From contig NZ_JAUASX010000004.1 of assembly GCF_030345715.1 (NCBI RefSeq), positions 1 to 64,000 of the forward strand: a stretch of DNA of 64,000 bases. The letters run 5' to 3'. Below the pieces are notes generated by a model. That model was not told the origin of the DNA. It saw only the letters and a list, made by a program, of their open reading frames with translations, and made no database searches. How positions within the stretch are numbered: the first letter of the stretch is position 1; each line of letters opens with the position of its first letter. Position numbers and translations under genes: made by a program. Positions 9,766-39,224 of this stretch are shown here, piece after piece. Origin of the DNA: Solimonas sp. SE-A11. GTDB lineage: Bacteria > Pseudomonadota > Gammaproteobacteria > Nevskiales > Nevskiaceae.

Positions 9766-9887
9766 GGCCTCTCGGCCCTGGCAGTCCCCGGGGTGAGGCG
9801 AACGCCACCCGGAGCCGTCATGCTTCGGCGTTCCCGGTGCGCGGAGGCGCGCCGGATGCCCGATGACGCGCTCGAACAGGTGAAGCA

Positions 9888-10595: not shown

Positions 10596-10606
10596 TCGCT
10601 AGCGAG

Positions 10607-11068: not shown

Positions 11069-11076
11069 ATAAAACC

Positions 11077-11141
11077 AACAATTTATTGTTTATTGGTTCA
11101 TTCATACTAAAACATCCCGATTCCAAAGTTAAATTTGGAAT
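11077..11141. promoter_or_regulatory. Two inverted repeats between lrp-like and ior genes (candidate Lrp operators)
   Basis: In the 143-bp divergent intergenic region, 11077-11090 is A-A-C-A-A-T, a 2-bp spacer, then A-T-T-G-T-T. The segment 11120-11141 is A-T-T-C-C-A-A-A, a 6-bp spacer, then T-T-T-G-G-A-A-T. Both sets of arms are perfect. The sequence is AT-rich as expected for Lrp-type binding, and the two dyads are about 43-47 bp apart, roughly four helical turns, which suits an Lrp oligomer. Confidence 0.55.
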
Positions 11142-11211
11142 CCTGTACTCCGGCCCCGGACCTAAGATTTCCGTACGCAGAGGCGCCATTGGCGCACCCA
11201 CGGAGAGTCCG

Positions 11212-14715: not shown

Positions 14716-14752
14716 CGAGACCGGCGCCGGGGCCATCCGGCGCCCGCTGGCC

Positions 14753-15655: not shown

Positions 15656-17294
15656 CTCTCGCTTTCTTCGGATGGAAGCGTGTCAGCAGCAGCGCATAGG
15701 CACGTGCCAGCACGGTGGTATGGGTCTCGCCGTCCAGGCAGGCATAGTCGATGCTGCCCGCCTGGCCGCGCTGCCGCAGCGCCTCGGCATAGTGCTCGGC
15801 CTGCGGGATGCCGGCCAGGCGGTTGAATGCGTTGTCCTGCTCCTCCCCGCCCATGGTCACCAGCAGCTTGCCGGCGCGGGGCATCACCGCCAGGCCGTCC
15901 TCCGGCGCGAGCATCCAGTCGCGGCTGATCGCCACCCCCGGGCTGAGCGAGCCGATGCCGGCGAACGGCGTATCGGCCTGCGCGCGCTCGTACGCCGCGT
16001 AGGTGCCGCCGGCGGAGTGCCCCACCAGGGACAGGCGCTCGGGATCGATCGGCAGGCTTCGCATCAGCTGCGGCAACAGTTCCTCGGAGAGGAACCGGTG
16101 GAACAGCGGCGCCCCGCCGAAATGCTGGCGCGCATCGCGGCCGAACAGCGAGAAGATCGACAGGAAGAAACGCCCCAGGGCACCCTCGAAGGCCCCCTCG
16201 GCCGGCGGCGAGAACTCCTCGAAGCGGCGCAGGCCGAAGGCCACCTCGCCCTCGGCGCGCGGCACGCCGATGCCAACGGTGATGAGGTCCTCGATCTCGC
16301 CGGCGTCGATCATGCGCGCCGCGATCTCGGAGATGCAGGACCAGGTGGAGTTCGCGTCCAGCGCCAGCACCGCGGGATAGCGGCCGCCCGCACTGGGCCG
16401 ACCGCGCGGCAGGCCGACGAAGATCTCGAAGTCGCGATCCATGATCTGCGAGCGCAGCACATGGCGGCTGGCACCGCCCACCGGCACGGCTGGCTCGCGG
16501 CGCAGGCGGCGGATCAGCGGCGACGCCGTGCGCAGCAGGCGTTCCACCAGCGGGCGGCTCAAGGGCATCACGTCATCGCCATAGGCGCGGCCGGAACCCC
16601 AGAAGCTGCGGATGCCATGGCACAGGGCCGGCACCGCCAGGCCCTCGCCCGTGGATTCCGGCAAGCGCTTGACGGCAACACTCGCCGGCGCGTCGCACGC
16701 CGGCGTGTCATTGGTGGCCCAGGCGACTCGGGGGCGCCCCCGGTGCAGGCCCGCGGGCCAGGGCAGGCTCGCGGCCTCGGCACCGGCCACGATCCAGCGA
16801 TCGATGGCCGTATCGGGCTGCCGCAGCAATTCGCGCGTGCAGGCCAGGCTGCGGCCCGCCGCAAACAAGGCGACCTCGCCCGGCTTCACGCGGTAGTGCA
16901 GCTGGCACCACTGCAGGATGCGCCCGATGCGTTCGGCCTGCACCGCGGCGTCGGCGCGAGCCAGCCAGGGATCGTCATGGCTCACCACGATGCACTCGCC
17001 CGCTTCCTTGGTGGCGACCAGCACGCGTGCCATCTCGATGCTGGCTCCCAGCATGCGGGTGCCGTCGGCCAGCAGCAGCAGCGGATAGCGCCGCAGCCCT
17101 CGTTCCCGGAACGACAGCGGCAACGCCACGGTGAGCCGGAAGCCATCCGCCGGCCCAGCGCCATGCACGGCATGGCTCTCCACCCGCGGAAAGCGCAGGC
17201 GCGCGGAATCGTCGGTGCCGATGACGAAGCGGCAATGGTCCAGGGGGGGGGCCAGGCGGGCGGCGTTGATCGGCTGGTTCAGGGCACTCAGCAT
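15639..17294 (-). CDS. Two-lobed esterase-like alpha/beta hydrolase, copy 2
   Basis: A 551-residue paralogue of the protein at 2429-4144, with the same two-lobe plan. The C-terminal lobe carries G-H-S-A-G-G-T-Y and a late G-E-T-H-T-T, whereas the N-terminal lobe repeats R-Y-P-L-L-L-L-A-D-G and E-C-I-V-V but has A-A-G-R-S-L-A where the serine elbow would be. Both proteins share R-R-F-E-E-F-S-P-P and E-Q-D-N-A-F-N-R-L-A-G-I type blocks in the active lobe. It starts 10 bp after the TBDR stop and overlaps the HSL-esterase gene, so the operon is TBDR, two-lobed hydrolase, HSL esterase. Substrate unknown; an ester or lactone delivered by the receptor is the natural inference. Confidence 0.82.
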   Translation of the reverse strand: MLSALNQPINAARLAPPLDHCRFVIGTDDSARLRFPRVESHAVHGAGPADGFRLTVALPLSFRERGLRRYPLLLLADGTRMLGASIEMARVLVATKEAGECIVVSHDDPWLARADAAVQAERIGRILQWCQLHYRVKPGEVALFAAGRSLACTRELLRQPDTAIDRWIVAGAEAASLPWPAGLHRGRPRVAWATNDTPACDAPASVAVKRLPESTGEGLAVPALCHGIRSFWGSGRAYGDDVMPLSRPLVERLLRTASPLIRRLRREPAVPVGGASRHVLRSQIMDRDFEIFVGLPRGRPSAGGRYPAVLALDANSTWSCISEIAARMIDAGEIEDLITVGIGVPRAEGEVAFGLRRFEEFSPPAEGAFEGALGRFFLSIFSLFGRDARQHFGGAPLFHRFLSEELLPQLMRSLPIDPERLSLVGHSAGGTYAAYERAQADTPFAGIGSLSPGVAISRDWMLAPEDGLAVMPRAGKLLVTMGGEEQDNAFNRLAGIPQAEHYAEALRQRGQAGSIDYACLDGETHTTVLARAYALLLTRFHPKKARDVPHV

Positions 17295-17304
17295 GGGGAC
17301 GCGC

Positions 17305-19746
17305 TCAGAAGCTCAGGCCGATGCGCGCGACGAAGGTGCGCGGGCGGATGTAGCCATGGTCCTTGGCGAATTGCGGGTTGTTGACGCCGCTGACCACGCC
17401 GCGCTCGTCGGTGAGATTGACCAGGGACAGCGACAACTCGGGCCTGCCGCTGATCGCGTCGTTGCCCAGCGTGAGAACGGCATCGAGCGTCTCGTAGCCG
17501 AACACACTGTCGAGATAGGCCAGCGTATTGGGTGCGGAACTGATCGTGGTGTAGGTCAGCGCGCCGCCGCCATTCCAGGCACCGGCCAGCGGGCGCGCAT
17601 AGCTCAGCGTGGCAGCGGTCTGCCATTCCGCCGCCAGCGGCCAGCGCGTGCCGGGCTCGATCTCGTCGCCGTTGTTGGCGGTGAAAGGCTTGGTTGTGAC
17701 GGTGTCCACCCAGGAGCCGGAGAAGGCCAGGGCCAGGCCGGGCAGCGGCGTGAGGTAGCGCAATGCCAGCTCCACACCACGCGAGCGAGCGCCGCCGACG
17801 TTGTCGAAGTAGGCGCCTACGCCGCTGGAGTCGGACTGCTGCAACTGCGGATCGATCCAGTCGAGCTGGAACGGCGTGATGTCGATCTGAAGGGTGTCAT
17901 CCAGCCACTGCGTGCGCAGGCCGAGTTCGTAGCTCCAGATGGTGTCGGACTTGTAGGTATCCGGTGCGCGCGACGTCAGCGTGCCCACCAGCACCTGTGC
18001 GCCGCCGAAGCGGAAGCCCCGGCTCACCGCGCCATAGACGCCGACGTTCTCGTTGACCTGGTACTTGACCGCGATCTTGGGATTCAGGCCCTGCTCTTCC
18101 AGCCGGCCCTCCTTCACCGCCTGCAGGCTGCCATTGGGCAAGGTCTGGTTGGCAGCCAGCGCGCCGGAGAAGATCACGCGGCTGTCGGACACGGCACGGA
18201 ACGCGCGCAGGCCCAGCGTGACCTCCAGCGAACCCCAGAAGACCCCGGTGGTCTCGCCGAACAGCGCCGTCTCCTCGACCACGATGGGATCGGCGTTGCC
18301 GCGCACCAGGTTGACCTGGCCATTCTCCGTGATGGTGCCGCCGAGCCCCGGCAGCGCACGGCCCAGCGCTTGCAGCAGCGCCGGCGGCAGCGGCAGCGTG
18401 ACATCGGTGAGCAGGTCCGTGGTCTCCACCATGCGCAGGCGGCGGTAGAACGCACCGCCCAGCAGCTTCCAGCGATCGCTGAAGCCGTCGTTGGAGGTGA
18501 AGCGCAGTTCCTGCATGAAGCTCTTGGACTCATTGTCGTTGGCCGTGGTGGCCAGCGGCGGCGGCCGGTCCATCAGGTTGGCGATGCGCGACACGTCGAT
18601 CCGCGCGTGGAATTCCTTGTAGGTACGGCTGGTCTGCGACAGCAGGTCGAAGCGCTCGAAGGAATATTGGATGCCGAGCGTCTCCAGGTCGTAGCGCGTG
18701 TTAGTCGGACTGGCCTTGGGCGTGTTCGAGCGGCTCAGGCGCCCTTCGCGGTTGTCGGTGACGGCGGAGTCGAGCACGTCGGTCTCCTGCAGCACCGCCA
18801 TGCCGCTGATCTTCCAGCGCTCGGACGGCTGCCACAGGCCCAGCACGCGGCCGCCGCGCTGCTCCACCTCGTTGACGTCGTCCAGGCCGCGCTGCAGGTC
18901 GTCCACCCAGCCCGGCGAGCCGCGGTCGAAGCCCACCACGCGCAGCGCGAAGGTCTCACCCACGGGGATGTTCACCGCGGCGCCATAGATCTGCCCCATG
19001 CCGCCCTCATGCACCAGCTCGGTCTGCGCGAAGGTCTTGAGCTCCCACTGCTCCAGGCGCGGCTCCTGCGGCACGTAGCGCACCGCGCCGTTGAGCGCGG
19101 AACCACCGAACAGCGTGCCCTGCGGCCCCTTGAGCACCTCGATGCGTGCGAAGTCGAAGGGATTGGGGTCCAATGTCACGCGCGGCAGCACCGGATCGTC
19201 GAAGGGCACGTCGCCCAGGAACACACCCGTGGTGCTGCTGGTATTGAGGTCGGCGCCGATGCCGCGGAAGGTGATGCGGCTGGCGTTGATGGAGTCGTTG
19301 GTGAAGGTCACGCCCGGCACCAGCTTGAGGAAATCCTCCTGCCCCTGCGCGCCGCGCATCTCCAGTTCCTGTGCGCCCAGCGCCGTGACGCTACCCGGCA
19401 GATCGCGCGGATTGGCCTCGCGCTTGGTGGCGGTGACCACGATCTCTTCCAGCAGGCCGGCGGGAGCGCGGGCCGTTTTCAACGCCGGCACGGTTTCCGT
19501 CCTGGCGGCCACCGGGATGGTCGGCAGCGATTCCGGCGCGACGGGGGGCTCCGATTCGCCCCGCGCGGCTTGCGCGTCCTGCTCCCCGCTCGCCTCACCT
19601 GCTGTTTGGGGCTCCAGGAGTTCGTCCAGCAGGACATCGTCCGGCGTGGCCGGAGACGAGTCGGCGAGCGCAGTCATGGGCAGCAGGCAGCACAGCGCGC
19701 AAAGGCCCGCCCCCGCTATTCCGTGCTTCATCCGGCGCTGCCGCAT
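17305..19746 (-). CDS. TonB-dependent outer-membrane receptor, copy 2
   Basis: An 813-residue receptor with a signal peptide (core A-G-L-C-A-L-C-C-L-L, cleavage near T-A-L-A-D). An Ala/Glu/Pro-rich linker contains the motif V-L-L-D-E-L-L-E-P. A TonB box E-E-I-V-V-T-A-T-K-R, a plug (I-T-F-R-G-I-G, G-P-Q-G-T-L-F-G-G-S) and a barrel ending I-G-L-S-F follow. It is more like the decayed receptor at 50668-51440 than like copy 1 (shared T-A-N-D-N-E-S-K-S-F-M-Q-E-L-R-type block). It is divergent from a TetR regulator with a strong palindrome in between, and heads an operon of two hydrolases. Confidence 0.92.
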   Translation of the reverse strand: MRQRRMKHGIAGAGLCALCCLLPMTALADSSPATPDDVLLDELLEPQTAGEASGEQDAQAARGESEPPVAPESLPTIPVAARTETVPALKTARAPAGLLEEIVVTATKREANPRDLPGSVTALGAQELEMRGAQGQEDFLKLVPGVTFTNDSINASRITFRGIGADLNTSSTTGVFLGDVPFDDPVLPRVTLDPNPFDFARIEVLKGPQGTLFGGSALNGAVRYVPQEPRLEQWELKTFAQTELVHEGGMGQIYGAAVNIPVGETFALRVVGFDRGSPGWVDDLQRGLDDVNEVEQRGGRVLGLWQPSERWKISGMAVLQETDVLDSAVTDNREGRLSRSNTPKASPTNTRYDLETLGIQYSFERFDLLSQTSRTYKEFHARIDVSRIANLMDRPPPLATTANDNESKSFMQELRFTSNDGFSDRWKLLGGAFYRRLRMVETTDLLTDVTLPLPPALLQALGRALPGLGGTITENGQVNLVRGNADPIVVEETALFGETTGVFWGSLEVTLGLRAFRAVSDSRVIFSGALAANQTLPNGSLQAVKEGRLEEQGLNPKIAVKYQVNENVGVYGAVSRGFRFGGAQVLVGTLTSRAPDTYKSDTIWSYELGLRTQWLDDTLQIDITPFQLDWIDPQLQQSDSSGVGAYFDNVGGARSRGVELALRYLTPLPGLALAFSGSWVDTVTTKPFTANNGDEIEPGTRWPLAAEWQTAATLSYARPLAGAWNGGGALTYTTISSAPNTLAYLDSVFGYETLDAVLTLGNDAISGRPELSLSLVNLTDERGVVSGVNNPQFAKDHGYIRPRTFVARIGLSF

Positions 19747-27648: not shown

Positions 27649-28062
27649 ATGCCTATCGCCTTCATTCACCTCTCGGACATCCACTTCGGCCAGGAAAAAG
27701 GCGGAGCTGTCGCCGTCCACGACGATGTCAAGGAACGGCTGATTGAAGATGTCCAGGATCAGGTGGCACGTCTTCCCGGACAGCGAGCCAGCGGTGTTAT
27801 TGTTTGCGGGGATATCGCGTACGCTGGAAAGCGTGAACAGTATGCGGCCGCTGCGGCTTGGCTCGATCAGATCGCTGGCGCAGCCGGTTGTGCGAAAACC
27901 GACGTACAAATGGTGCCGGGCAACCATGATGTAGATCGCGCCAAGATTTCTGCAGCACTCACTTGGATGCTTGAAGAGATCAAGGTGAAGGGCGAGGCGA
28001 AACTTGACGAGTTTTTTGAGGCCGAGAACGACAGGACCCTCCTCTATAGCCGCTTCCAGCAG
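27649..28062 (+). pseudogene. Metallophosphoesterase, N-terminal fragment interrupted by intron/IS sequence
   Basis: About 138 codons encode the N-terminus of a calcineurin-like metallophosphoesterase. The metal-binding motifs are S-D-I-H-F-G (Asp10, His12), C-G-D-I-A-Y-A-G (Asp55) and P-G-N-H-D-V-D-R (Asn92, His93). The rest of the phosphatase is missing: after L-L-Y-S-R-F the frame runs without a stop into group II intron reverse-transcriptase sequence and then an IS256-type transposase. This subgroup often forms the N-terminal domain of large multidomain proteins linked to phage defence, so a disrupted defence gene is possible (inference). Confidence 0.7.
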
Positions 28063-28354
28063 GTAGAACCTTCGAGGGAGGAAATGCAAATGAACCTGGC
28101 AACAGCGTGTGCGTCCTCCGACGAGCAGGTCCCTTGGGACAGCATCGACTGGTCCAAGGTACATCGGCACGTCAGGAGGCTCCAAGCGCGTATCGTGAAG
28201 GCGTGGCAGGTTGGTGATCACGGCAAGGTGAAAGCCCTGCAATGGCTGCTGACCCACTCGTACAGCGGTCGTGCGTTGGCCGTGAAGCGGGTGACGGATA
28301 ATCGTGGCAAGAGAACGCCAGGAGTCGACGGGATGATTTGGTCGACGCCTGGGA
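28063..28354 (+). pseudogene. Group II intron reverse transcriptase/maturase, N-terminal fragment
   Basis: A GGGAGG sequence precedes ATGs at 28084 and 28090. The encoded segment I-D-W-S-K-V-H-R-H-V-R-R-L-Q-A-R-I-V-K-A, then K-V-K-A-L-Q-W-L-L-T-H-S and G-K-R-T-P-G-V-D-G, is the RT0/RT1 start of bacterial group II intron proteins (LtrA type). It stops at the left inverted repeat of the IS256-type element; no downstream RT domains remain. Upstream there is no room for ribozyme domains I-III, so the intron is truncated at both ends. Confidence 0.75.
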
Positions 28355-29660
28355 GCCTGTCAGGATTTTTGTGTGCTGAGCCATACACTGCCCTCTTGGG
28401 CAAGGAAGGACGTATGGCAAAGAAGGACGCGGGGCCGTTTACGGCGGAGCTTCTGGACTCGCTGCTGGCAGGGCGTGACCCCAAGACGATACTGGATTCT
28501 GGCGGCCTGCTCGGCGAGCTGAAGAAGGCCTTGGCGGAGCGCATGCTCAACGCCGAGATGGACGTTCATCTGGACGGCGAGGCCGAAGCAGGCCTGTCCA
28601 ATCACCGCAATGGCAGCAGCCCGAAGACAGTTCTGACGCCCGAAGGCGCGATCGAGTTGTCGATCCCGCGCGACCGGCACGGTCGCTTCGACCCGGCCCT
28701 GATCGCCAAGTATCGGCGCCGCTTCCCCGACTTCGACGACAAGATCATCGCCCTGTACGCCCGGGGCATGAGCACCCGGGACATCCAGGCGCACGTCCGC
28801 GAGCTATACGGCATCGAGGTCTCGCCGGTTACCGACTCGGTGATCGACGAGGTGACGGCCTGGCAGGCCCGGCCGCTGGAGTCGACCTACGCGATCGTGT
28901 TTTTCGACGCCCTGCGGGTCAAAATCCGCGATGAAGGCCTGGTCCGAAACAAGGCGGTGTACCTGGCCATTGGCATGCGTCCCTCCGGGCACAAGGAAGT
29001 GCTGGGCCTCTGGATCGAGCAGACCGAGGGCGCCAAGTTCTGGCTGCGCGTCATGAACGAGATCCGGGCCCGCGGTACGCAGGACATCCTGATTGCCGTC
29101 GTCGATGGCCTGAAGGGCTTCCCGGAGGCGATCACCGCGGCCTTTCCCGACGCCGTGGTCCAGACCTGCATCGTTCACCTGATCCGCTACTCGATGCAAT
29201 TTGCGTCCTGGAAGGAGCGCAAGGCCGTGGCCGCCGGTCTCAAGCCGATCTACCGGGCCGAAAGCGCCGAGGCCGCCGCCCGTGAACTGGACGCCTTCGA
29301 CCAGGGACCGTGGGGACGGAAATACCCGGTGATCGCCCAAAGCTGGCGGCGTAACTGGGAGGCGGTGATCCCGTTCTTCGCGTTTCCGGCGGACGTGCGC
29401 AAGATCATCTACACGACCAACGCCATCGAGAGCCTCAACGCTTCGGTACGCAAAGCCATCCGCAACAAGGGGCACTTCCCCAACGATCAGGCCGCCACCA
29501 AGCTGATCTGGCTGGCACTGCGACACATCACCGACAACTGGAAGAATCCACCCATCACGTGGCACTCTGCCCGGGCACAGCTGGCTATCCAGTTTGGCGA
29601 GCGCTTCACGCTGACCGATTGATTACACCAACCGGCTCACACACAGAATTTCTGACAGGC
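28355..29660 (+). mobile_element. IS256-family insertion sequence
   Basis: About 1.3 kb bounded by inverted repeats that both start GCCTGTCAG. The left end reads GCCTGTCAGGATTTTTGTGT from 28355; the right end, read inward from 29660, is GCCTGTCAGAAATTCTGTGT. It contains one transposase gene. The flanks (group II intron sequence at left, thioesterase upstream region at right) share no obvious 8-9 bp target duplication, so the junctions were probably altered by an IS-mediated deletion or recombination. Confidence 0.8.
28414..29622 (+). CDS. IS256-family (mutator-type) transposase
   Basis: A 402-residue DDE transposase started at the ATG at 28414; the frame is also open upstream through intron and phosphoesterase fragments. 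Catalytic blocks are visible: first Asp in I-V-F-F-D-A-L-R-V-K, second Asp in V-V-D-G-L-K-G-F-P-E-A-I, and Glu in Y-T-T-N-A-I-E-S-L-N-A. These, together with C-I-V-H-L-I-R-Y-S, are typical for the IS256/mutator family. It looks intact and would move the element by a copy-out circle mechanism. Confidence 0.93.
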   Translation: MAKKDAGPFTAELLDSLLAGRDPKTILDSGGLLGELKKALAERMLNAEMDVHLDGEAEAGLSNHRNGSSPKTVLTPEGAIELSIPRDRHGRFDPALIAKYRRRFPDFDDKIIALYARGMSTRDIQAHVRELYGIEVSPVTDSVIDEVTAWQARPLESTYAIVFFDALRVKIRDEGLVRNKAVYLAIGMRPSGHKEVLGLWIEQTEGAKFWLRVMNEIRARGTQDILIAVVDGLKGFPEAITAAFPDAVVQTCIVHLIRYSMQFASWKERKAVAAGLKPIYRAESAEAAARELDAFDQGPWGRKYPVIAQSWRRNWEAVIPFFAFPADVRKIIYTTNAIESLNASVRKAIRNKGHFPNDQAATKLIWLALRHITDNWKNPPITWHSARAQLAIQFGERFTLTD

Positions 29661-30616: not shown

Positions 30617-31078
30617 GTGAAATACCGTTCCATCTATCATCCCGATCTATTCAAAAGCAAAACCGTGATCGTCACGGGCGGGGGCAGCGGCATCGGCCGC
30701 TGTACCGCGCACGAGCTCGCCAGCCTCGGCGCCAGCGTCGCCATCGTCGGCCGCAAGGTCGAAAAGCTGGACCGGGTACGCGGGGAAATCGAGGCCGCCG
30801 GGGGGCGCGTGAGCTGTCATGTCTGCGACATCCGCGAGGAGCCGATGGTGCGCCAGATGATCGCCGAGGTCATCGCGCGCCACGGCGGCATCCACGGCCT
30901 GGTCAACAACGCCGGCGGCCAGTACCCCTCGCCGGCCAGGGATCTGAGCACCAAGGGCTGGGAGGCGGTGATTCGCAACAATCTCACCGGCGGCTTCATC
31001 GTCGCACGCGAGGCGTACACCCAGTGGATGGAGGCGCACGGAGGCAGCATCGTCAACATCGTCGCCGCCAACGTATAG
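30617..31078 (+). pseudogene. Short-chain dehydrogenase/reductase, truncated by the recombinase-trio element
   Basis: The GTG at 30617, after AGGAG, opens an SDR resembling 2,4-dienoyl-CoA/trans-2-enoyl-CoA reductases. The cofactor motif T-G-G-G-S-G-I-G and the N-N-A-G-G motif are present. The frame reaches S-I-V-N-I-V-A-A-N-V at codon 153 and stops. The catalytic Y-x-x-x-K and the last ~110-130 residues are absent, so the product cannot be active. The stop is formed at the left end of the recombinase-trio element, whose first CTATGGACAT repeat begins at 31083. The missing 3' half is not found beyond the element's right end. Confidence 0.82.
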
Positions 31079-31095
31079 CACCCTATGGACATGCA

Positions 31096-31129
31096 CCCGG
31101 TGAATGTCATTCTATGGACATTCACCGGG
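31096..31129. repeat. loxP-like 13-8-13 bp perfect dyad at the element's left end
   Basis: CCCGGTGAATGTC (31096-31108), an 8-bp spacer ATTCTATG (31109-31116) and GACATTCACCGGG (31117-31129). All 13 positions of the arms are complementary. This geometry matches the core site of a tyrosine recombinase. No T-run follows, so it is not a terminator. Confidence 0.8.
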
Positions 31130-31202
31130 GCGTAGACAGGGTACGTGCATTTCCCGGGTGGAGGCTTATAGCTATTAAAGAGCCTAATCCGGGGAGGTGG
31201 TC

Positions 31203-32465
31203 GTGGCGTGTCTGGAGTACATCAATTACCAGCCGTGGCGGGATGTCGCGGTAGGGAAAAGCATCATTTGGGAACCGGACGCGATTGCTCCGGGAGTGCG
31301 CGGCCTCCCCCAGGTATTCTGGAAGAGTGGTGAGGGGTGGGCCGAAGCAAACCACTGGGCCTTGGAAAAGGTCATCAACCAAGGCGTCCACCTCGATACC
31401 GCCAAAGCGCTGCTAAAGCATCTCCATGCTTATGCCTGCTTCCTGGAAGAGAACGAGCTGGACTGGCGCCACTTCCCTACCCGCCTAGCTGATCGCGCCG
31501 TGGTGCGCTTCAGGGGCCACCTGGTGAGGGAAATCGAGCGAGATAGCTTGAAGTCGAGCACGGCTCGCTCTCGCATCAACGCGGTTGTTCAGTTCTATCG
31601 CCACGCCGCGGCTCACGACTTCGTTACCTCCACTACCCCGATGTGGCGCGAGCGCACCGTCGTAGTCCGGTACTACGACACGGTAGGCTTCCAGCGATCT
31701 CTGCTCCGCCTGACCACCGATCTGGCCATTCCCAACCGAGCCATACCAGGAGTGCGCCTGGAGGACGGCTTGTTGCCGATCACCGACTCGCACATGACTG
31801 AACTCCTAGAGTTCACCGCTGGCAAGGAGACTGCTGAACTGCATCTCATGCTGACGACGGGCTTCTTCACAGGAGCGCGCCTCGGCAGCATCACAACCCT
31901 GCGCATCGAAAACTTAGAGCATGCTCTCCCTGACCCATTGATGAAGGGCTTCTACCTGTTGCGGGTCGGACCCGGCACGAATGTCGCGACGAAGTTCAAC
32001 GTTGAGGGAAACCTGCTGGTCCCAAAGGCGCTGTTGGAGGAGTTGAAGCGGTACGCATACTCCACTGAACGCCTGAAGCGGGAAGCCCGGGCCACTGCCG
32101 CTCACCGGACCCTGCTGTTCCTCACATCGCGAGGAAAAGGCTACAGCGTCAATTCCGTGGGCCGGCTGATGACTGGACTGCGTCGGAAGGCAGTTCGCTC
32201 CAACCTGCGTTTCATGCAGCACTTCAAATTCCACCAGACAAGAGCAACCTACGGTACCTGGCTGATGAAGCTGGTGTTAGGGGTGACTACGGCCAGCGCG
32301 GCTGTAGAGTTCGTCAAGAACGCCATGCTACACAAGCACGAAGCAACGACGTTCAAATACGTTAAGTTCTTGGAGGACACCAAAGGCAAGCAGGAGGCCG
32401 CCCGCGCTTTCCATGAGGCTTTTACAGGCCTTAAGAGAAGGGACTGGGACGACGTCCATGCTTAA
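31203..32465 (+). CDS. Tyrosine recombinase 1 of the trio (TnpA-like)
   Basis: A 420-residue recombinase. The GTG at 31203 is preferred over the GTG at 31197 because the GGGGAGG sequence then sits 5 bp upstream. The catalytic set is complete: Arg in T-T-G-F-F-T-G-A-R-L-G-S-I, H-x-x-R in F-K-F-H-Q-T-R-A-T-Y-G-T-W, and H...Y in L-H-K-H-E-A-T-T-F-K-Y-V-K-F-L. The N-terminal half (L-L-K-H-L-H-A-Y-A-C-F-L-E-E-N) forms the core-binding domain. Its 3' end overlaps recombinase 2 by 8 bp, which indicates coupled translation of the set. Confidence 0.88.
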   Translation: MACLEYINYQPWRDVAVGKSIIWEPDAIAPGVRGLPQVFWKSGEGWAEANHWALEKVINQGVHLDTAKALLKHLHAYACFLEENELDWRHFPTRLADRAVVRFRGHLVREIERDSLKSSTARSRINAVVQFYRHAAAHDFVTSTTPMWRERTVVVRYYDTVGFQRSLLRLTTDLAIPNRAIPGVRLEDGLLPITDSHMTELLEFTAGKETAELHLMLTTGFFTGARLGSITTLRIENLEHALPDPLMKGFYLLRVGPGTNVATKFNVEGNLLVPKALLEELKRYAYSTERLKREARATAAHRTLLFLTSRGKGYSVNSVGRLMTGLRRKAVRSNLRFMQHFKFHQTRATYGTWLMKLVLGVTTASAAVEFVKNAMLHKHEATTFKYVKFLEDTKGKQEAARAFHEAFTGLKRRDWDDVHA

Positions 32466-34197
32466 CGACATAAAGCTTCCTGATCTGACATTCCCCGAAG
32501 TGAAGTTGGGCGAGCGTGAGACCCCTTGGAATCTCGCACCCCTGCTATTCAGGGGTGGCGCTGCCACACACACACGTCGGGTAGCCGAGCGGATAACCAA
32601 CGGCTCCCTCGGCGCCCCGCAACTCGATCGCATTCCGCTCGTAACGAAAATACATGAATCGATCAATGGCAAACTGGTAGGCGGAGGCAGCTTCTACTCG
32701 GCGAACGCATCGATAAACAACTTCCGCTACATGTTCACCTGGGCCGAGCGCACCGGTGAGAAAATAACTCTTGAGTCAGTGGAGAAGGTTTTCCTGGCTT
32801 GGACCGATTCACTGGTGCACAGGCAACAGGTGGTGAAGGACCTGGTGCAATGCTCTGCATACTCCAAGGCTTCTGTCGTCGGCAACATTCTGGACGATGT
32901 TCTACAACGGCCATTTCCCCTGATCACAATGACCCGGTTGCGGGTGCCCAATCGGCGTAAGCGGGCCCGTACAGCCAAAGCCGAGAAGCAGAATCTTGCC
33001 GAGACCTTCGAATTCGGGCATTTCCTACAGGACATCTGCGACGCCCTGCCAACCGATGTTGTCCTGCGCGGCGCCCTCCCGGTTCATATCCCGTTGCGAC
33101 GCGGAGGCGAGCTAATCGAGTGGTCAGGCTATTCAAACTGGAAATCGGTGCTTCACCACCGTGCAAACCCGCTCACTGACCAGGCCCCGGGAAAGCAACG
33201 GACGGCTCAGCGCAAGTGCTTGGCCTGCTTCGAGGCATGGGAGAGCGACGGCACACTCCGCACCCGACGTCCTCTCGCAAACAAGCGTTCAGAAGCTGAA
33301 CTCCTGTTGTTCATCGGCCAGACCGGAATGAACTTCACACAGGCCCACAAGCTCAAGCTGACGCATTTCTCGTATGCGAGTCATCTCGATGGCTATCTCG
33401 TCCGCGACCGGAAGGGCCGGCGCGGCGGAGATGTACTTTTTGAGATCTACAGAGAGTACAAACCTCACTTCGAGCGCTACCTTGATTGGCGACGCCAACT
33501 ATTTCCTGACTCCGATGACCTCTTTCCTCTGGAGGTGGAGCCTGGCCGCGCATTTCTGAAGCTTCCCCAGTTCGGACTCAGATATACCTGTGAGAGGATA
33601 GGACTCGCCTTCGTCTCGCCGCGAAAGTTGCGCAATACCCGTGTCAACTGGCTGCTCCGTCGGACCGGCGATCCGGACCTGACCGCAGCGATGGCTCAGC
33701 ACAGTAAGGAAACGCTGCTCGAAGTCTACGAACAGCCGAGCCAGCAGCGTGCGATGACGGAAGTCACCCACTTCTGGGCCCAGCATGATCCGTCATTGAG
33801 TACCTCATCGGCGGGGCCTGGGGAATGTGACGGAAACCCCGTGCCATTGAGAGACCTTCCGAAGGACGTCTTAATGCCAGATTGCATCCGACCATCCGGC
33901 TGCCTCTGGTGCGAGCACCATCGGGATATCGATAGCCAAGACTACGTTTGGTCGCTCGCTTGCTTCCGGCATCTGAAAATCATTGAGGTCTCCGTTTGGA
34001 CTCCTCCGAAAGGCCAGGGGCGGGAGAATCATCCCGCTCAACTCGTCGTGAACCGGATCACCGACAAACTGCGATGGTTCCGAGGCTCTAACCAGCGCCG
34101 CCAGGAATGGGTCGATGAAGCACTCGCGCGCGTTGAGGAAGGGAACTACCACCCCGACTGGAGCCGGAGAATCAACGCCATGGAGGGAGCCGCATGA
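32458..34197 (+). CDS. Tyrosine recombinase-like protein 2 of the trio (TnpB-like, altered active site)
   Basis: A 579-residue protein. The ATG at 32458 overlaps the stop of recombinase 1; an upstream in-frame ATG at 32413 is possible. The C-terminal catalytic region is recognisable (A-M-A-Q-H-S-K-E-T-L-L-E-V-Y-E with His and Tyr). However, the first Arg position reads G-Q-T-G-M-N-F-T-Q-A-H-K-L-K-L, with Asn where Arg is expected, and the H-x-x-R box is K-L-R-N-T-R. A Cys-rich tail (C-I-R-P-S-G-C-L-W-C-E-H-H plus a later C-F) could bind zinc. It probably acts as an accessory or structural partner. Confidence 0.75.
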   Translation: MLNDIKLPDLTFPEVKLGERETPWNLAPLLFRGGAATHTRRVAERITNGSLGAPQLDRIPLVTKIHESINGKLVGGGSFYSANASINNFRYMFTWAERTGEKITLESVEKVFLAWTDSLVHRQQVVKDLVQCSAYSKASVVGNILDDVLQRPFPLITMTRLRVPNRRKRARTAKAEKQNLAETFEFGHFLQDICDALPTDVVLRGALPVHIPLRRGGELIEWSGYSNWKSVLHHRANPLTDQAPGKQRTAQRKCLACFEAWESDGTLRTRRPLANKRSEAELLLFIGQTGMNFTQAHKLKLTHFSYASHLDGYLVRDRKGRRGGDVLFEIYREYKPHFERYLDWRRQLFPDSDDLFPLEVEPGRAFLKLPQFGLRYTCERIGLAFVSPRKLRNTRVNWLLRRTGDPDLTAAMAQHSKETLLEVYEQPSQQRAMTEVTHFWAQHDPSLSTSSAGPGECDGNPVPLRDLPKDVLMPDCIRPSGCLWCEHHRDIDSQDYVWSLACFRHLKIIEVSVWTPPKGQGRENHPAQLVVNRITDKLRWFRGSNQRRQEWVDEALARVEEGNYHPDWSRRINAMEGAA

Positions 34198-36239
34198 CCG
34201 CCCGACTTGACGTGTTCGGGCTGCGCCAGACCTCGGACTGGATGACGCCCCAACACCGATCGTTCCGGCCTCCGGCCTGGCCGCCGCCGAGGGATTGGGT
34301 GGTCAGCGAGGATCGCAATGGGACTGTCTTGTCACGGTGGGGCGACCCCGTCTGGGACATTACCCCGTGGGCTGGGCGTTCCATGATCTTGGACTTTGGT
34401 GATGACGCGCCGCAGACCACCAGAAAAGCCAAACCACTTAGCGCAGATAACGCTGACCTCCTCCGTATGATTGCCACCTGGCGGATGTGGGGGATAAAGG
34501 CGACATCGACGGCCAACACATTGAAGAGCGCGTTCCTCGGGCTGCGGCGGATCGTCGCGCTCTGCAACGATAACGGGATTCTCGCCAGCCAGCTTATGCG
34601 CTTCCCGCGGGTGTTCGAGCAATTGCCCGGCCTCATTCCACCCAGCGAGTATACAAAGACCATCGTCGAGCTACATCGGCTATGGGACGCTCGAAACTAC
34701 ATCGAATTCGTGATGGTTGATCCCGAGGGGATCAAACGGCTCGCGCTTGCAATGCCGAACCGCGAGATTGAGCAGACGGCGTTCATCCCTCCGCGAATCT
34801 GGACCTACCAGGTGAAACGCCTGAAGGCGTGCCTTGATGACTACTTGGCTCACAAGAGCGCAGTGGAGGACTGCTTCACTTTTTGCGTTGACGCATACGC
34901 ACACAATTTCGGGTCACTGGAGAAGGCCATGTCGGATTGGTCCCGGCATCGACTTCCATTCTGGACTCCGCCCTCCATTGGAAAGGGGTCAAAATCAGGC
35001 TGCATCTACCGCGGGCCGTTCAACCTCACAGCAGAGCGATATGGCATTGCGCAGTTGATCGAGCGGTGGACCGGCGTCCCTGTTGCAAAACAAGACATCC
35101 GCCAGTTCTCCGCCTACCTCACGCTCGTGCAAAGCACCGGCCTGGCCTACATCACAAACTTCACGCTACAGCGAGTGAGTGAAGCAGCCTCCTTGCGCAC
35201 CGACTGCCTGACCTGGGAGACGGATGAGAAGCTTGGACGCATCCCCATCATCACTGGCGAAACGACAAAGACCGATCCGGACAGCGATGCCCGTTGGCCC
35301 ACGAGCCCCAGCGTAAAAGCCGCTGTCGAGGCCATGGCAAGCATTGCCCGCCTCCGCATGCGCTGTGCTGCCGCCGATCCGAAGGTTAGCCCCTCTGCCG
35401 CCGACATCCAGAACCCACTCCTATACAACACCTCGTTTGAACCATGGAGCGGGAACGTAGCGAAGTCCTACGCGATCATGCCGCACTACGGCGCTTATCA
35501 GTCGATGGCAAAGCGGTTCGATCGGCTATTCGATGACGAGCAACTGCGGATCACGGAGGATGATCTTCGGATCGCACGCATGCTTACCCCAAATCTAAGT
35601 GAGGCGAGCGGTTTTGCGGTCGGCCGGGTCTGGCCGCTCGCATGGCATCAGTTGCGTCGCACCGGCGCAGTGAACATGTTTGCCAGCGGGCTTCTATCCG
35701 ATTCGAGCATGCAGTTCCAGATGAAGCATGCCTCTCGGTTGATGCCTCTCTACTATGGCCGAGGGCATGCCAAACTGCGCCTGAACGACGACGTGGAAGC
35801 AATCATCGTCGCGGCGATGTATGAGGCCATGGCGCACAAGCTCCACGCAGCTGTTGGCGACCGCTTCGTATCGCCGCTCGGCCCAGAGCGGAAGGAAGCA
35901 ATTCTGGTCAACATGGTCGGGGACAAGGAGTCGAAGCAACTCGCGGCCGAGAGCCGAAAAGGCAAGACCCACTTTCGGCCAATGAGACTTGGTGGATGCG
36001 TGCATCGCGGCACCTGCAAATACGGTGGTGTGGAGTCCATATCGCGGTGTGCCGGCGGCGACGGCGATGGCCCCTGTGCAGATGCCCTTTACGACCGCGA
36101 GAAAGCACCAGAGATCGAGAAGGACCTGGCGCTCATTAACGAAGAAATTTCATCAACCCTAGCTGGCAGCCCGCGCCATAAGGCTCTGCTCGCGGAACGC
36201 CAAGGCATGGAGAATTATCTGAATGTCGTCAAAGCCTGA
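34194..36239 (+). CDS. Tyrosine recombinase 3 of the trio (large, Cys-rich C-terminus)
   Basis: A 681-residue recombinase beginning in an ATGA overlap with recombinase 2. Catalytic residues are complete: Arg in F-T-L-Q-R-V-S-E-A-A-S-L-R, H-x-x-R in A-W-H-Q-L-R-R-T-G-A-V, and H...Y in M-K-H-A-S-R-L-M-P-L-Y-Y-G. After the domain comes a Cys-rich segment G-G-C-V-H-R-G-T-C-K-Y-G-G with S-R-C-A-G-G-D-G-D-G-P-C, suited to metal binding, and a helical tail. It is about twice the length of a simple integrase, as in large TnpB-type recombinases. Confidence 0.87.
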   Translation: MTARLDVFGLRQTSDWMTPQHRSFRPPAWPPPRDWVVSEDRNGTVLSRWGDPVWDITPWAGRSMILDFGDDAPQTTRKAKPLSADNADLLRMIATWRMWGIKATSTANTLKSAFLGLRRIVALCNDNGILASQLMRFPRVFEQLPGLIPPSEYTKTIVELHRLWDARNYIEFVMVDPEGIKRLALAMPNREIEQTAFIPPRIWTYQVKRLKACLDDYLAHKSAVEDCFTFCVDAYAHNFGSLEKAMSDWSRHRLPFWTPPSIGKGSKSGCIYRGPFNLTAERYGIAQLIERWTGVPVAKQDIRQFSAYLTLVQSTGLAYITNFTLQRVSEAASLRTDCLTWETDEKLGRIPIITGETTKTDPDSDARWPTSPSVKAAVEAMASIARLRMRCAAADPKVSPSAADIQNPLLYNTSFEPWSGNVAKSYAIMPHYGAYQSMAKRFDRLFDDEQLRITEDDLRIARMLTPNLSEASGFAVGRVWPLAWHQLRRTGAVNMFASGLLSDSSMQFQMKHASRLMPLYYGRGHAKLRLNDDVEAIIVAAMYEAMAHKLHAAVGDRFVSPLGPERKEAILVNMVGDKESKQLAAESRKGKTHFRPMRLGGCVHRGTCKYGGVESISRCAGGDGDGPCADALYDREKAPEIEKDLALINEEISSTLAGSPRHKALLAERQGMENYLNVVKA

Positions 36240-36651
36240 GTCTCTGACAGCCGAAGATCGTTTTCGGCAAGCATTTGAGCGGCTGAAGCTCAACAAGCCC
36301 AAGACGTTGCCGATCGGAACGCCGGTCTCTCAGAACAATGTGGCGAAGGAGGCTGACTGCGATCCATCAGCGCTCAAAAAAGCTCGCTTCCCATCGCTCG
36401 TTCGCGAGATACAGGCGTATATCGAAGTTCATGAGCAGGAGCGCCCGTCCAAGCGTAAAGAGCAGCTTAAGCAGCGCCAAGCCAGGGGCAGCCTTAGGGA
36501 CCGATTGAAGGATGTGGCTGAGCAGCGCGATAAGGCCCAATCGGAGCTGGTGAGTGCTCAGCGCCGCGTCGTTGAGCTGGCAACAGAACTCCAGGCTGTG
36601 AAGGAGGAGCTTGACCGTGTGCGGCCTCGCCCTACCGCGTTACGCCGATAA
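36223..36651 (+). CDS. Small basic coiled-coil protein of the recombinase operon (TnpC-like)
   Basis: A 142-residue protein whose start overlaps recombinase 3 by 17 bp. The N-terminal part (T-P-V-S-Q-N-N-V-A-K-E-A-D-C-D-P-S-A-L-K-K-A-R-F) resembles a small helix-turn-helix. The rest is a Lys/Arg/Gln/Glu-rich coiled coil ending in the heptad-like E-L-A-T-E-L-Q-A-V-K-E-E-L. A small helical protein after two or three recombinases is typical for TnpC of Tn554-type elements, where it influences the frequency and orientation of insertion. Role here inferred from position. Confidence 0.75.
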   Translation: MSSKPESLTAEDRFRQAFERLKLNKPKTLPIGTPVSQNNVAKEADCDPSALKKARFPSLVREIQAYIEVHEQERPSKRKEQLKQRQARGSLRDRLKDVAEQRDKAQSELVSAQRRVVELATELQAVKEELDRVRPRPTALRR

Positions 36652-36885
36652 AGTTCGCAAACACGCCTGGCGGGCTTCTATTTCTCCGACCGCTGGTTTG
36701 CAGAAAATCCGATATCGGGCTGAGGCTTTCCTTCACCTGACGGCAGAGTCAGGTTAGTGCCGCTTATCACGGGGTTCATTGATTATCATGTAACTGTCTC
36801 TTAGCATCAATCAGGGATGCAAAGCAGTCCGCCGCAAATCCATGCCGTAAGACGGACGTTATTCGGGCTGCCAAGAGGGGGACTT

Positions 36886-37461
36886 ATGGCACGAGACGGG
36901 GATAAACGAGTCACACGCGCACTGGTAGCATGGCTTTCTGGGGCGTTATCACTGATGGCTTGCAGCCAGGCCGCTGCGCAATGTAGCGCGCCTGAGGTTA
37001 AGAAAACGCTGGCGAAGGTGTTGGAGCCAGAAGTGACGAGTGCACTGCAAAGCACTCTGTTTTACGGCGCCTTGATAGATGGGATGATGTCGGATGACGG
37101 CGCTACTGCCACCCGGGAGATATTTGGCTGCGATACAGCCTTCGATCCGCTGAAATCCGGGCTTCCGCCGGAGGTTGCTTGGCAGCAACGGGAACAGTTG
37201 CAGAAGGAACAACGAGCAAAATGCGAGGCGCAGCATGGGACACAGAGTGCCCTGAACGCACAACCACGGATTACGGTTTCGGCTATCCGGTTCAGGGGAC
37301 GGGGCAAGGGCACCGACCGCGTGCTTTGCGCCGCACGCGTGACGGCGGCTCCGCAGGGGAGCCCGACTGACAGGGCGGATCTTGATTTCGAGATTACCTA
37401 TTCTGTCGAGGCTACTGAGGATGGAGAGAGTTATGTGACGATCTTGTCAGCAGACAAGTGA
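36886..37461 (+). CDS. Exported protein of unknown function (cargo gene 1)
   Basis: A 191-residue protein from the ATG at 36886, after AGAGGGGG. Its N-terminus is a signal peptide (V-A-W-L-S-G-A-L-S-L-M-A-C-S-Q-A-A-A-Q) that ends either at signal peptidase I (A-A-A-Q) or possibly as a lipoprotein (M-A-C). The mature part has a conserved-looking helical start E-V-K-K-T-L-A-K-V-L and a C-terminal beta-rich domain (R-I-T-V-S-A-I-R-F-R-G, L-D-F-E-I-T-Y-S-V-E-A). I recognise no family. The stop overlaps the next start (GTGA), so it is co-translated with the GIY-YIG-like gene. Confidence 0.7.
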   Translation: MARDGDKRVTRALVAWLSGALSLMACSQAAAQCSAPEVKKTLAKVLEPEVTSALQSTLFYGALIDGMMSDDGATATREIFGCDTAFDPLKSGLPPEVAWQQREQLQKEQRAKCEAQHGTQSALNAQPRITVSAIRFRGRGKGTDRVLCAARVTAAPQGSPTDRADLDFEITYSVEATEDGESYVTILSADK

Positions 37462-37853
37462 CATACGTGATTACGGAAATCCAGGGTGTTGAGGAACTGT
37501 TCCGAGCCGAATTCGGGACTCTCACGGAGAAGTTCACCGTTGTAGACCTGACGCGCGAAGAGGCACGCGCGTCAGATTCTAGGCGAGTGGCCATTCCCGG
37601 CGTATATGTTTGGTGGAACCCCGAGTCCAATGCCATCAAGATTGGAAAGTCATTCGATAACTCCAGAGCCCGCGCCTTCAAGCACTTTCGTGACGACACG
37701 GCCGGCAGGTTCGTGAAACTGGCCGATCACCCTTTGACGCGACTATTCTTATCTAATGTTTCCAACCCTGCGGATGCACATTGGGTGGCCGCATTGGAAA
37801 TCTTCCTTGAACACCGCTTGTCGCCGGCGATTCCGGCTCGAAGGATTGGGTGA
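37458..37853 (+). CDS. GIY-YIG-like nuclease domain protein (cargo gene 2)
   Basis: A 131-residue protein with no export signal. The block P-G-V-Y-V-W-W-N-P-E, then A-I-K-I-G-K-S-F-D-N-S-R-A-R-A-F-K-H-F, resembles the GIY-YIG core (G-V-Y-V in place of G-I-Y, K-I-G-K-S in place of Y-I-G, Arg on the following helix). A later E-I-F-L-E-H could carry the metal-binding Glu. The start is a GTG overlapping the upstream stop. GIY-YIG proteins cut DNA in homing, repair, restriction and toxin contexts. Embedding between an exported protein and a lipoprotein is unusual. Confidence 0.6.
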   Translation: MTYVITEIQGVEELFRAEFGTLTEKFTVVDLTREEARASDSRRVAIPGVYVWWNPESNAIKIGKSFDNSRARAFKHFRDDTAGRFVKLADHPLTRLFLSNVSNPADAHWVAALEIFLEHRLSPAIPARRIG

Positions 37854-37857
37854 AACG

Positions 37858-38973
37858 ATGCGCTATTCAGTATTGTTTTTAGCCGCTTCCACTGCATGGC
37901 TCTCTGGTTGCGTGGTTGAGCCTATCGTTGAAATGATCCCGGGTGGGCGCGATGCGCTCCAAAATGCCCTGTCGCCAGCGAAGACGGAGATGAAAGCGCC
38001 TGCAGTGCTGCAAGCCTCGCCCCAGCTGCTTCAAAAAGATACGAGGGTTTTCTGCTTCGGCCCCCAGAAGAGCACTGGAGGCAGGGTGACTCGAATCGAA
38101 TCGCCTCCGGGGTTCAGTGCCCAATCGGAGCGCGAAGCCCGCAGGCTTGCGGCGGACGCCCAGGGGAAGGCTGATGGACGTCCTGATTATGTGGCCCTAT
38201 TCGCTCAAAATCGCTCACTCGCAGAAGCCGGCGATGCAAAAGCCGGCTTCTGTTTAGGATTCATGTACTCCCAAAGCCTCGGGACATTCAAAGATGAGGG
38301 GCAGGCGGCGCGGTGGATCGGAAACACTGCCGAGCAAGGTCTGGCCGAGGCGCAGTACCGGATGGCAATGTCGGTGGGCGCTGAGGATCGACAAGGAACT
38401 GCGATGGTCGATTTTTCTACGAGTTCCAATTCTAGGTGGGTGTGGGATGAGGGGTGGCGGCGGCCTATGCGTGCAGGACGATCTGATAGTGGACTCCAAG
38501 TCTACTCGGTCGAAATGCAGGCCGCGCAGTGGCTGGAGAAGGTTGCGGCCCAGGGCTACGCGGATGCCCAGTATCAACTGGCATTACTTCTCAGCGGAAG
38601 TTGCGGCCTCATCGCAGCCTGCGGTAGCGACAATCCGGCAATAGTCGAGCGCGAGAAGCAGGCGCGTCAGTGGTGGGACAGAGCGATCGATCAGGGCTAC
38701 GTGCCCGCGATCGTCGCAAAGGCAGACCGCCTCAAAGAGACTGAAAAAGTCGAAGCTGCACGCCTCTACTGCAACGCGATGCAACAGCAGTATTGGAATA
38801 TCTACAATGCAGACATTGATGCTGCTCGATCACCGCAAGAAGAGTCTCAAAACAAATGGATGGAGCGCCAAAAAGAGGAGGCGTACTTCAATCGCATTTC
38901 AGCGAAACTACAAGAACTTAAGAGGTACGAACCCTCGGCACCATGGCCGGAATGCAAAGTCCGAAAGGAATGA
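37858..38973 (+). CDS. Sel1-repeat lipoprotein (cargo gene 3)
   Basis: A 371-residue protein from the ATG at 37858, 4 bp after the previous stop. A lipoprotein signal (S-V-L-F-L-A-A-S-T-A-W-L-S-G-C) places Cys18 as the lipid anchor. The mature part has tandem Sel1-like repeats: G-D-A-K-A-G-F-C-L-G-F-M-Y, Q-G-L-A-E-A-Q-Y-R-M-A-M, Q-G-Y-A-D-A-Q-Y-Q-L-A-L-L and Q-G-Y-V-P-A-I-V-A-K-A. Sel1 proteins act as protein-protein scaffolds. As the last gene of the cargo operon it may anchor or neutralise the exported partner. Confidence 0.8.
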   Translation: MRYSVLFLAASTAWLSGCVVEPIVEMIPGGRDALQNALSPAKTEMKAPAVLQASPQLLQKDTRVFCFGPQKSTGGRVTRIESPPGFSAQSEREARRLAADAQGKADGRPDYVALFAQNRSLAEAGDAKAGFCLGFMYSQSLGTFKDEGQAARWIGNTAEQGLAEAQYRMAMSVGAEDRQGTAMVDFSTSSNSRWVWDEGWRRPMRAGRSDSGLQVYSVEMQAAQWLEKVAAQGYADAQYQLALLLSGSCGLIAACGSDNPAIVEREKQARQWWDRAIDQGYVPAIVAKADRLKETEKVEAARLYCNAMQQQYWNIYNADIDAARSPQEESQNKWMERQKEEAYFNRISAKLQELKRYEPSAPWPECKVRKE

Positions 38974-39034
38974 CCGGGCGGCTGTTGGGACTTGAAAGCG
39001 CTACTCGGTCTGTATGCTATTGAGGCCCCAAAGG

Positions 39035-39055
39035 TATGGACATTGGGCGTCCATA
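39035..39055. repeat. Dyad TATGGAC-N7-GTCCATA at the element's right end
   Basis: TATGGAC at 39035-39041 and GTCCATA at 39049-39055 around a 7-bp spacer. The half-site T-A-T-G-G-A-C-A-T-T is the one repeated at the left end (31083, 31112) and again, inverted, at 39131-39141. It is the likely recombinase-binding counterpart of the left-end sites. Confidence 0.6.
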
Positions 39056-39186
39056 TTGGCCGAAATCCGCTATAGTTCCATGGACAAGCCAACACCCGCA
39101 GAAAACTGCACATCTGTCTGCGGTTAGCATAATGTCCATAGATGCCTAATCGCGGGTGCGGCGACAACGTGTAGTTCTCCTGCGCA

Positions 39187-39224
39187 AACGAAAAAGCCCC
39201 GGCAGATGCCGGGGCTTTTTCGTT
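39187..39224 (-). terminator. Bidirectional terminator behind the repeat lipoprotein gene
   Basis: A perfect 17-bp stem: AACGAAAAAGCCCCGGC at 39187-39203 pairs with GCCGGGGCTTTTTCGTT at 39208-39224 around an AGAT loop, with A5/T5 tracts on both sides. It ends transcription of the minus-strand lipoprotein gene whose stop lies 11 bp away. Confidence 0.9.

Follow-up and report, generated by a model that had tools for sequence, protein, structure and literature searches.

An SE family element at two sites of the Solimonas sp. SE-A11 genome, with a six-base tag pointing to the copy at ychF as donor and many relatives titled as Betaproteobacteria

Introduction

The closest described systems to the locus reported here are the SEs, whose four-gene core (intA, tfp, intB and srap) was set out by Idola et al. 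2023 (PMC10214605). SE-6945 and SE-6283 of Vibrio alfacsensis have sizes of 7.2 and 13.8 kb and, in the excerpts available of PMC10214605 and PMC9345347, their donor site is described as not emptied; the rule stated there for both is that the circle takes along the six bases next to the donor's left end, which then come to lie at the right of the new copy. SEs have, besides, imperfect inverted repeats (C and C′) of 13–19 bp at their tips and form circles with a strand bias. In the same excerpts of PMC10214605, the protein WP_034039553.1 is named in the pair of identifiers of SE-PaeBT2436, as its Tfp, and homologues of Tfp and Srap are reported absent from Alpha- and Betaproteobacteria. In this study a stretch of 64,000 nucleotides from Solimonas sp. 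SE-A11 (contig NZ_JAUASX010000004.1, positions 1 to 64,000), hereafter the window, was analysed with regard to an element of 8093 bp that occupies positions 31067 to 39159. The element belongs, as judged from its genes, to the SE family and is present twice in the genome, at the 3′ end of ychF and inside an SDR gene, and the copy at ychF probably gave rise to the other.

Results

Recombination genes and family assignment

The element and its recombination genes are the following.

31067–39159, + strand: whole element (SE), 8093 bp, flanked by six-base spacers at 31061–31066 and 39160–39165.
31203–32465, + strand: intA, tyrosine recombinase of 420 amino acids (aa), catalytic residues R226, H344, R347, H377 and Y386.
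32458–34197, + strand: tfp, tyrosine-recombinase-like protein of 579 aa, without the first catalytic Arg and His.
34194–36239, + strand: intB, tyrosine recombinase of 681 aa with a long N-terminal region, residues R327, H485, R488, H512 and Y520/Y521.
36223–36651, + strand: srap, auxiliary coiled-coil protein of 142 aa, with generic coiled-coil matches only in Pfam.

The four genes overlap head to tail, and their order (catalytic, non-catalytic, catalytic, auxiliary), found in 56 rows of the alignment, is that of the SEs. The R-H-R-H-Y set of IntA and that of IntB were invariant in all 56 aligned rows. In Tfp the ArgI position was occupied by Asn in 56/56 rows and the first His position by His in 0/56, and R392, H415 and Y424 were kept throughout (56/56). 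Since Tfp is without the first catalytic Arg and His, only two of the three large proteins, IntA and IntB, are predicted to be catalytic recombinases, with Tfp as a recombinase-like partner; an earlier note on this DNA, made from the letters alone, had counted three tyrosine recombinases, and was right as to three overlapping genes of 420, 579 and 681 residues.

Membership of Tfp (P0002) in the SE family was judged by pairwise identity to WP_034039553.1, which amounted to 45% over the alignment and to 44% in tblastn. The same four-gene block was found in a Klebsiella plasmid (L010), adjoining tmexCD1-toprJ1, and there the second gene is WP_034039553.1. The element is, by gene order and protein identity, a member of the SE family with the four-gene core of Idola et al. 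2023; the distinct branch considered possible in the earlier note is not supported as an unnamed one, its core being that given for SEs in the excerpts of PMC10214605.

IntA matched Pfam PF00589 at E 7.3e-6, just short of the cut-off, and a PHROG integrase at E 4.2e-13. IntB had no match of its own in Pfam, NCBIfam or PHROGs, no NCBIfam match at E up to 1 was obtained for IntA, Tfp or IntB, and no reliable match to a solved structure was obtained by sequence for any of these three proteins. The AlphaFold model of Tfp, built from 21 sequences, had a mean predicted local distance difference test (pLDDT) value of 79. Compared with the PDB, tyrosine recombinases ranked first, weakly (XerH 5jk0, E 1.9e-3, TM-score 0.29/0.44), XerA was also resembled, and there were zero matches at E up to 0.001.

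Two copies of the element and a shared hexamer

A search of the strain's own genome with window positions 31000–39200 gave three places: the window itself (contig C34), the terminal 125 bases of C28 and the initial 122 bases of C3. Beyond these bases C28 holds the remaining 3′ half of the SDR gene, and C3 holds ychF. The left flank of the window is the SDR site, whereas the DNA on its right is that found downstream of ychF. Two copies of the element are thus present in the genome, at the 3′ end of ychF and within the SDR gene. The description of the element as lying inside a broken SDR gene is accordingly true of the left flank and not of the right one, the 3′ half of that gene being on C28. 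The two spacers of the window are the following.

31061–31066, + strand: attL spacer of the SDR insertion, GTCGCC, host bases beside the left tip, from junction comparison.
39160–39165, + strand: attR spacer of the ychF insertion, GGCGAC, with host DNA downstream of ychF from 39166.

Two left and two right junctions were read. The SDR insertion has GTCGCC/element at the left and element/CGCTTC/GACATC at the right; the ychF insertion has CGCTTC/element at the left and element/GGCGAC/AACGTG at the right. The empty ychF site was present in a genome of the same genus (G003, locus L075) as CGCTTC/AACGTGTAG (CGCTTC/AACGTG); there ychF is uninterrupted and is followed directly by the right flank of the window, with 93.1% over 5111 nt from 39166 on. 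After insertion the C terminus of YchF reads FRFANV instead of FRFNV. Five SDR paralogues read across the insertion point of the SDR gene without the five extra residues ANVRF. Its presence at two places in one genome, together with the unoccupied ychF site of a relative, supports the single mobile unit that the earlier note had supposed.

The ends of the element are identical between C34 and C3 over 121 nt and between C34 and C28 over 122 nt, which gave the bounds of the element; the right boundary was set at 39159/39160 because the flank match to L075 stops at the junction while the L075 sequence continues into ychF. The bounds first proposed (31083–39141) marked a real element, whose extent is corrected to 31067–39159 with six-base spacers.

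The hexamer CGCTTC at the left of the ychF copy is the same as that at the right of the SDR copy. At the present base composition two random hexamers would match with a chance of 4.3e-4. By the SE rule, the shared CGCTTC would make the ychF copy the donor, and we estimate at roughly 0.8 the probability that this copy made the SDR copy by SE copy-out/copy-in, that is, that an SE family member is present here as a home copy and its daughter.

Element ends and composition

The G+C content of the element was 57.7%, compared with 66.7% in the rest of the window. Both ends carry inverted repeats in regions that are putative recombinase sites.

31083–31129, no strand assigned: left-end recombinase-site region, CTATGGACAT, 13-nt inverted repeat, CTATGGACATT.
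39035–39141, no strand assigned: right-end recombinase-site region, TATGGACATT / GTCCATA / AATGTCCATAG.

The inverted repeat of the left end is perfect over 13 nt (31096–31108 / 31117–31129) and that of the right end over 10 nt (39035–39044 / 39131–39140). The sequence CTATGGACAT is present near both tips in inverted orientation, starting 16 nt from the left one and 18 nt from the right one. TATGGAC/GTCCATA occurs six times in the 64-kb window, five of them inside the two element ends. Of the 54 relatives for which 220 nt of sequence ahead of intA were available, 26 have ATGGACA in that stretch and 28 do not, compared with 2.5% of random stretches. The element contains 38 inverted repeats of at least 14 nt; the first listed pairs end with end (31111–31139 / 39114–39142, 29 nt, 72%). 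The end-to-end alignment score was 32, the highest of 500 shuffles being 31, and the right tip pairs with 31093–31122, 26 nt inside the left tip. A consensus scan for promoters gave one site, with 2.6 expected, and no promoter is claimed. The genes with their overlaps, the coiled-coil gene, the palindromic ends and the compact cargo were all as first described.

Assembly of the window

In G003 the left flank (9000–16000) lies on a different contig. In G002, a genome in a single contig, parts of this flank map with the same orientation as ychF and at a distance of about 145 kb from it. The window therefore combines the left junction of the SDR insertion with the right junction of the ychF insertion. 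Because C28 and C3 break 121–122 nt inside the element, the assembler probably made this join in error at the repeat. No diverged second copy of the element genes was found in the strain's own genome.

Alternatively, the window could be assembled correctly, the genome truly joining the 5′ half of the SDR gene, the element and the DNA downstream of ychF through homologous recombination between the copies (deletion circle or tandem duplication). The junction sequences are compatible with this, and recombination between direct copies in the arrangement of G002 could yield such a join; however, the ends of C28 and C3 at this depth in the element are what a short-read assembly interrupted by a repeat would typically show, the passage through an 8-kb repeat is without independent support, and a plain deletion would remove the segment carried by C34. 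A true join is thus unlikely, and an assembly error remains the preferred explanation. More generally, repeats of about 8 kb can join distant loci in assemblies, as has probably happened in the present window.

Relatives, target sites and host range

A total of 63 related loci was compared, 57 from one genome-contig scan with an IntB alignment, four from plasmids and two from viral contigs, the latter two being distant SE relatives. The search of the block across genomes, also proposed in the earlier note, gave the complete four-gene block (all four genes in order, more than 75% of the length, no internal stop) in 55 of the 63; L016 is counted among them although the start of its intA is cut by a contig end. 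Several of the eight incomplete loci (L024, L036, L038, L042, L048, L055, L060 and L065) are cut by contig ends. L038 (Acidovorax sp. Leaf191) has a disrupted tfp, and some 6 kb separate its intA from the remaining block. IntB relatives from the genome-contig scan were 38–65% identical, and Srap genes, located after intB in the relatives, 42–66%. By tblastn against 72,556 plasmid records, IntB relatives were found in 114, all with less than 60% identity.

The closest relative, L011 of Pseudomonas putida (IntB 65%), and L025 of P. capeferrum are also located at the 3′ end of ychF, the gene being read from the upstream DNA; no convincing right end of L011 was found within the 10 kb examined. In the tree of concatenated proteins the present element groups with L025, L007 and L011 (Shimodaira–Hasegawa-like approximate likelihood ratio test, SH-aLRT, 97). 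L007, on a Pseudomonas aeruginosa plasmid, is a close relative of the present element, directly behind a short efflux permease frame (about 6646–7016). Several relatives of SE-PaeBT2436 (such as L033–L035) are located behind what we take to be a umuC-like frame, and not at ychF.

With host classes taken from titles and three genera checked, the 49 complete blocks on genome contigs comprised 25 betaproteobacterial, 20 gammaproteobacterial and four unassigned rows (L013, L015, L023 and L047). L047, titled Streptomyces, has recombination proteins identical to those of two Pseudomonas rows and is probably a contamination; the name Bordetella parapertussis in the title of L045, a metagenome-assembled genome, may be wrong. 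Four hosts with betaproteobacterial titles form one 16S group with 100/100 support, and the 16S gene of the strain under study falls outside these four rows, with three gamma rows (tree of eight rows, no outgroup). In Azoarcus sp. L1K30 the SE and a 16S gene are on one scaffold of 4.96 Mb. The midpoint-rooted tree places the present element in a group of 31 rows, 23 of them beta, five gamma and three unassigned. SE relatives with the four-gene block are, by these matches, common in Betaproteobacteria; none of the eight papers found to use the SE name treats this class, as judged by their titles.

Cargo genes

Three genes follow the recombination genes.

36886–37461, + strand: cargo 1, exported protein of 191 aa, signal-peptide-like N terminus read from the sequence.
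37458–37853, + strand: cargo 2, GIY-YIG-like small protein of 131 aa, Pfam GIY-YIG at E 0.1, short of the cut-off.
37858–38973, + strand: cargo 3, Sel1-repeat lipoprotein of 371 aa, lipobox LSGC read from the sequence, Sel1 at E 2.4e-5, short of the cut-off.

Cargo 1 and cargo 2 overlap by four bases and cargo 3 starts four bases after cargo 2; because they overlap or adjoin within four bases, the three genes probably form one operon. Cargo 1 had one weak match among 368 other genomes of the class and no plasmid match at E up to 0.01. Cargo 2 had no match in these 368 genomes and none in viral contigs, one match among 57 other genomes of the family and one in a Shewanella plasmid, near parA and rep genes. 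The residues G-V-x-V...K-x-G-x-S...R...H...E of cargo 2 are kept in two distant homologues, neither of which has a Pfam match; we take this pattern to resemble those of GIY-YIG folds. A single-sequence AlphaFold model of cargo 2 was discarded (pLDDT 37), and its comparison by sequence with solved structures gave nothing reliable, the CFA/I matches looking like chance. Cargo 3 matched in 29 of the 368 genomes at E up to 1e-8, those listed mostly in the Sel1-like middle part, and had no plasmid match at E up to 1e-5; it also gave a partial match to the NCBIfam mercury protein MerG (34.7 bits, cut-off 350) and one to a PHROG of unknown function (E 3.9e-12). None of the three genes was present in the 61 related SE loci compared (L007–L067; the two viral-contig loci were outside this comparison), and in the plasmids, class and family genomes and related loci searched the three were not found together elsewhere. 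The cargo is undescribed, as the earlier note had suggested, in this weak sense.

A phage-defence or envelope-immunity operon, the defence role having been raised in the earlier note, would agree with the compact set of overlapping or adjoining genes for an exported, a nuclease-like and a lipoprotein product, and with the locus of the closest relative L011, likewise at ychF, where IetAS, a listed defence system, lies behind srap. In contrast, none of the three genes matched a PADLOC model at E up to 1, no NCBIfam or PHROGs match names a defence function, and neither a conserved companion nor joint recurrence was found in the searches made, so that defence is unsupported for this cargo and is considered improbable. 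An envelope-related trait would be our guess. In L011 itself, positions 13527–19531 hold a helicase-like gene and the IetAS pair (PADLOC) behind the recombination genes, and defence cargo therefore occurs in the SE group.

Elsewhere in the window, a single open frame at 27649–29622 combines three pieces that look like insertion remnants, apparently nested, which we take to be a metallophosphoesterase start, a group II intron maturase-like start and an IS256-family transposase.

Discussion

Proposed movement

With protein roles as published for other SEs, IntA and IntB, aided by the catalytically dead Tfp and by Srap, would join the left and right ends of the element. A circle would be copied out with the six bases from the left of the donor, the donor remaining in place, and would insert elsewhere, those six bases then being at the right of the new copy. 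The home copy would be that at the 3′ end of ychF, which leaves the gene nearly intact, and the daughter would have entered and broken the SDR gene. The presence of two copies fits strand-biased circle formation with a donor site that is not emptied, and the route is presumed to be copy-out, not cut-and-paste.

Two unrelated arrivals of the same element, the six-base match being due to chance, would require an event of about 4e-4 per comparison, somewhat more with several comparisons allowed, and the same data do contain a second, unexplained hexamer coincidence. Against such arrivals, the match is the one expected from the published SE rule if ychF was the donor, the two sets of element ends show no difference over 121 and 122 nt, and the genome yielded no diverged second copy of the genes. 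Independent arrival is therefore considered improbable, and copy-out/copy-in from ychF is preferred.

Several observations weigh against this interpretation. Read on the opposite strand, GGCGAC at the ychF attR equals GTCGCC at the SDR attL, for which the model gives no explanation; this perfect complementarity of the two spacers may be chance or a trace of an earlier donor, and no mechanism is offered for it. The empty SDR site was read from paralogues with about 70% identical DNA and no orthologue, and one of three same-genus relatives (G003) has the right flank beside ychF within the 1.5 kb compared, the other two giving no match. The outermost tips of the two ends are weakly alike and form no tidy inverted repeat. 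L011 and L025 are without the extra GCC at the left tip, so that the ancestral left tip could differ by three bases from the one given here. The interior of the second copy is unassembled, and the identity of the two interiors, like the circle and the transposition event, is inferred, not witnessed.

The chief interest of the locus is the natural donor-daughter pair with its hexamer tag, together with the many betaproteobacterial relatives. SE movement has been seen in few experiments, and a donor-daughter pair with a readable tag is an independent natural test of the copying route, in which the tag gives the direction of movement from sequence alone. The published host range of SEs (Gammaproteobacteria only) is, by these relatives, too narrow, and host range matters because SE family members carry last-resort antibiotic-resistance genes. 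With somewhat less assurance than for the movement itself, we consider it likely that the genome keeps a natural record of SE copy-out/copy-in by a ychF-specialised SE, with a daughter in the SDR gene tagged with the donor hexamer, and that this SE belongs to a large lineage mostly found in Betaproteobacteria, where SEs were reported absent.

Comparison with known systems

Assignment to GInt, the independently described ginABCD genomic island of Bardaji et al. 2017 (PMC5385486, from excerpts), which has an equal number of genes, three recombinase-like proteins, a small fourth gene, gene-end insertion and variable cargo, is highly improbable and was dropped in favour of SE because of the catalytic pattern and the identity to a named Tfp, the separation from GInt being made by description: GinC, the third GInt protein, is without the first catalytic arginine (PMC5385486) whereas the third protein here is complete (R327 in 56/56 rows), and it is the second protein here in which the first Arg and the first His are missing, in 56/56 rows. 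This second protein also has about 45% identity to the Tfp named for an SE, while most GinC proteins fail to match Tfp by BLASTP in the excerpts of PMC10214605.

RIT elements share with the present one three adjacent recombinase-like genes. In Table 1 of PMC10214605, as excerpted, the archetype RIT proteins have 315–410 aa, all with the catalytic tyrosine, and 34-bp terminal repeats; here the proteins have 420, 579 and 681 aa and there is a fourth gene. A 34-nt inverted repeat between the element ends was not found, the end-to-end pair being of 29 nt at 72%. Tyrosine Y424 is kept in Tfp, so that the tyrosine criterion alone does not exclude RIT. Tn554 (TnpA, TnpB and TnpC only, that is, two recombinases and TnpC) was ruled out by the extra Tfp gene; it resembles the present element in that a hexamer flanking the donor on the left is transferred to the right flank at the new site, according to the excerpts of PMC10214605. 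The view that the element is neither RIT nor Tn554 therefore holds, by protein sizes, extra genes and the missing 34-nt end repeat.

Among the matches listed, none of the relatives carries the name gamma-mobile-trio (GMT). The likeness to GMT suggested in the earlier note would lie in the mobile nature of the unit and in a trio of recombination genes, which the GMT elements of Mahata et al. 2024 reportedly contain. These elements carry offence and defence cargo, according to the excerpts of PMC12715929.

Within the SE family, SE-6945 and SE-6283 are similar to the present element in size and in the rule of the donor-left hexamer. Since the proteins of these two prototypes are mutually only about 20–27% identical (PMC9345347, in excerpt), both sets are probably very distant from the present one, by analogy. 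SE-PaeBT2436, which carries tmexCD-toprJ as resistance cargo, differs in its proteins (40–53% identity) and in its position in the other main clade of the midpoint-rooted tree, and it shares with the present element the order intA-tfp-intB-srap and the ATGGACA site upstream of intA.

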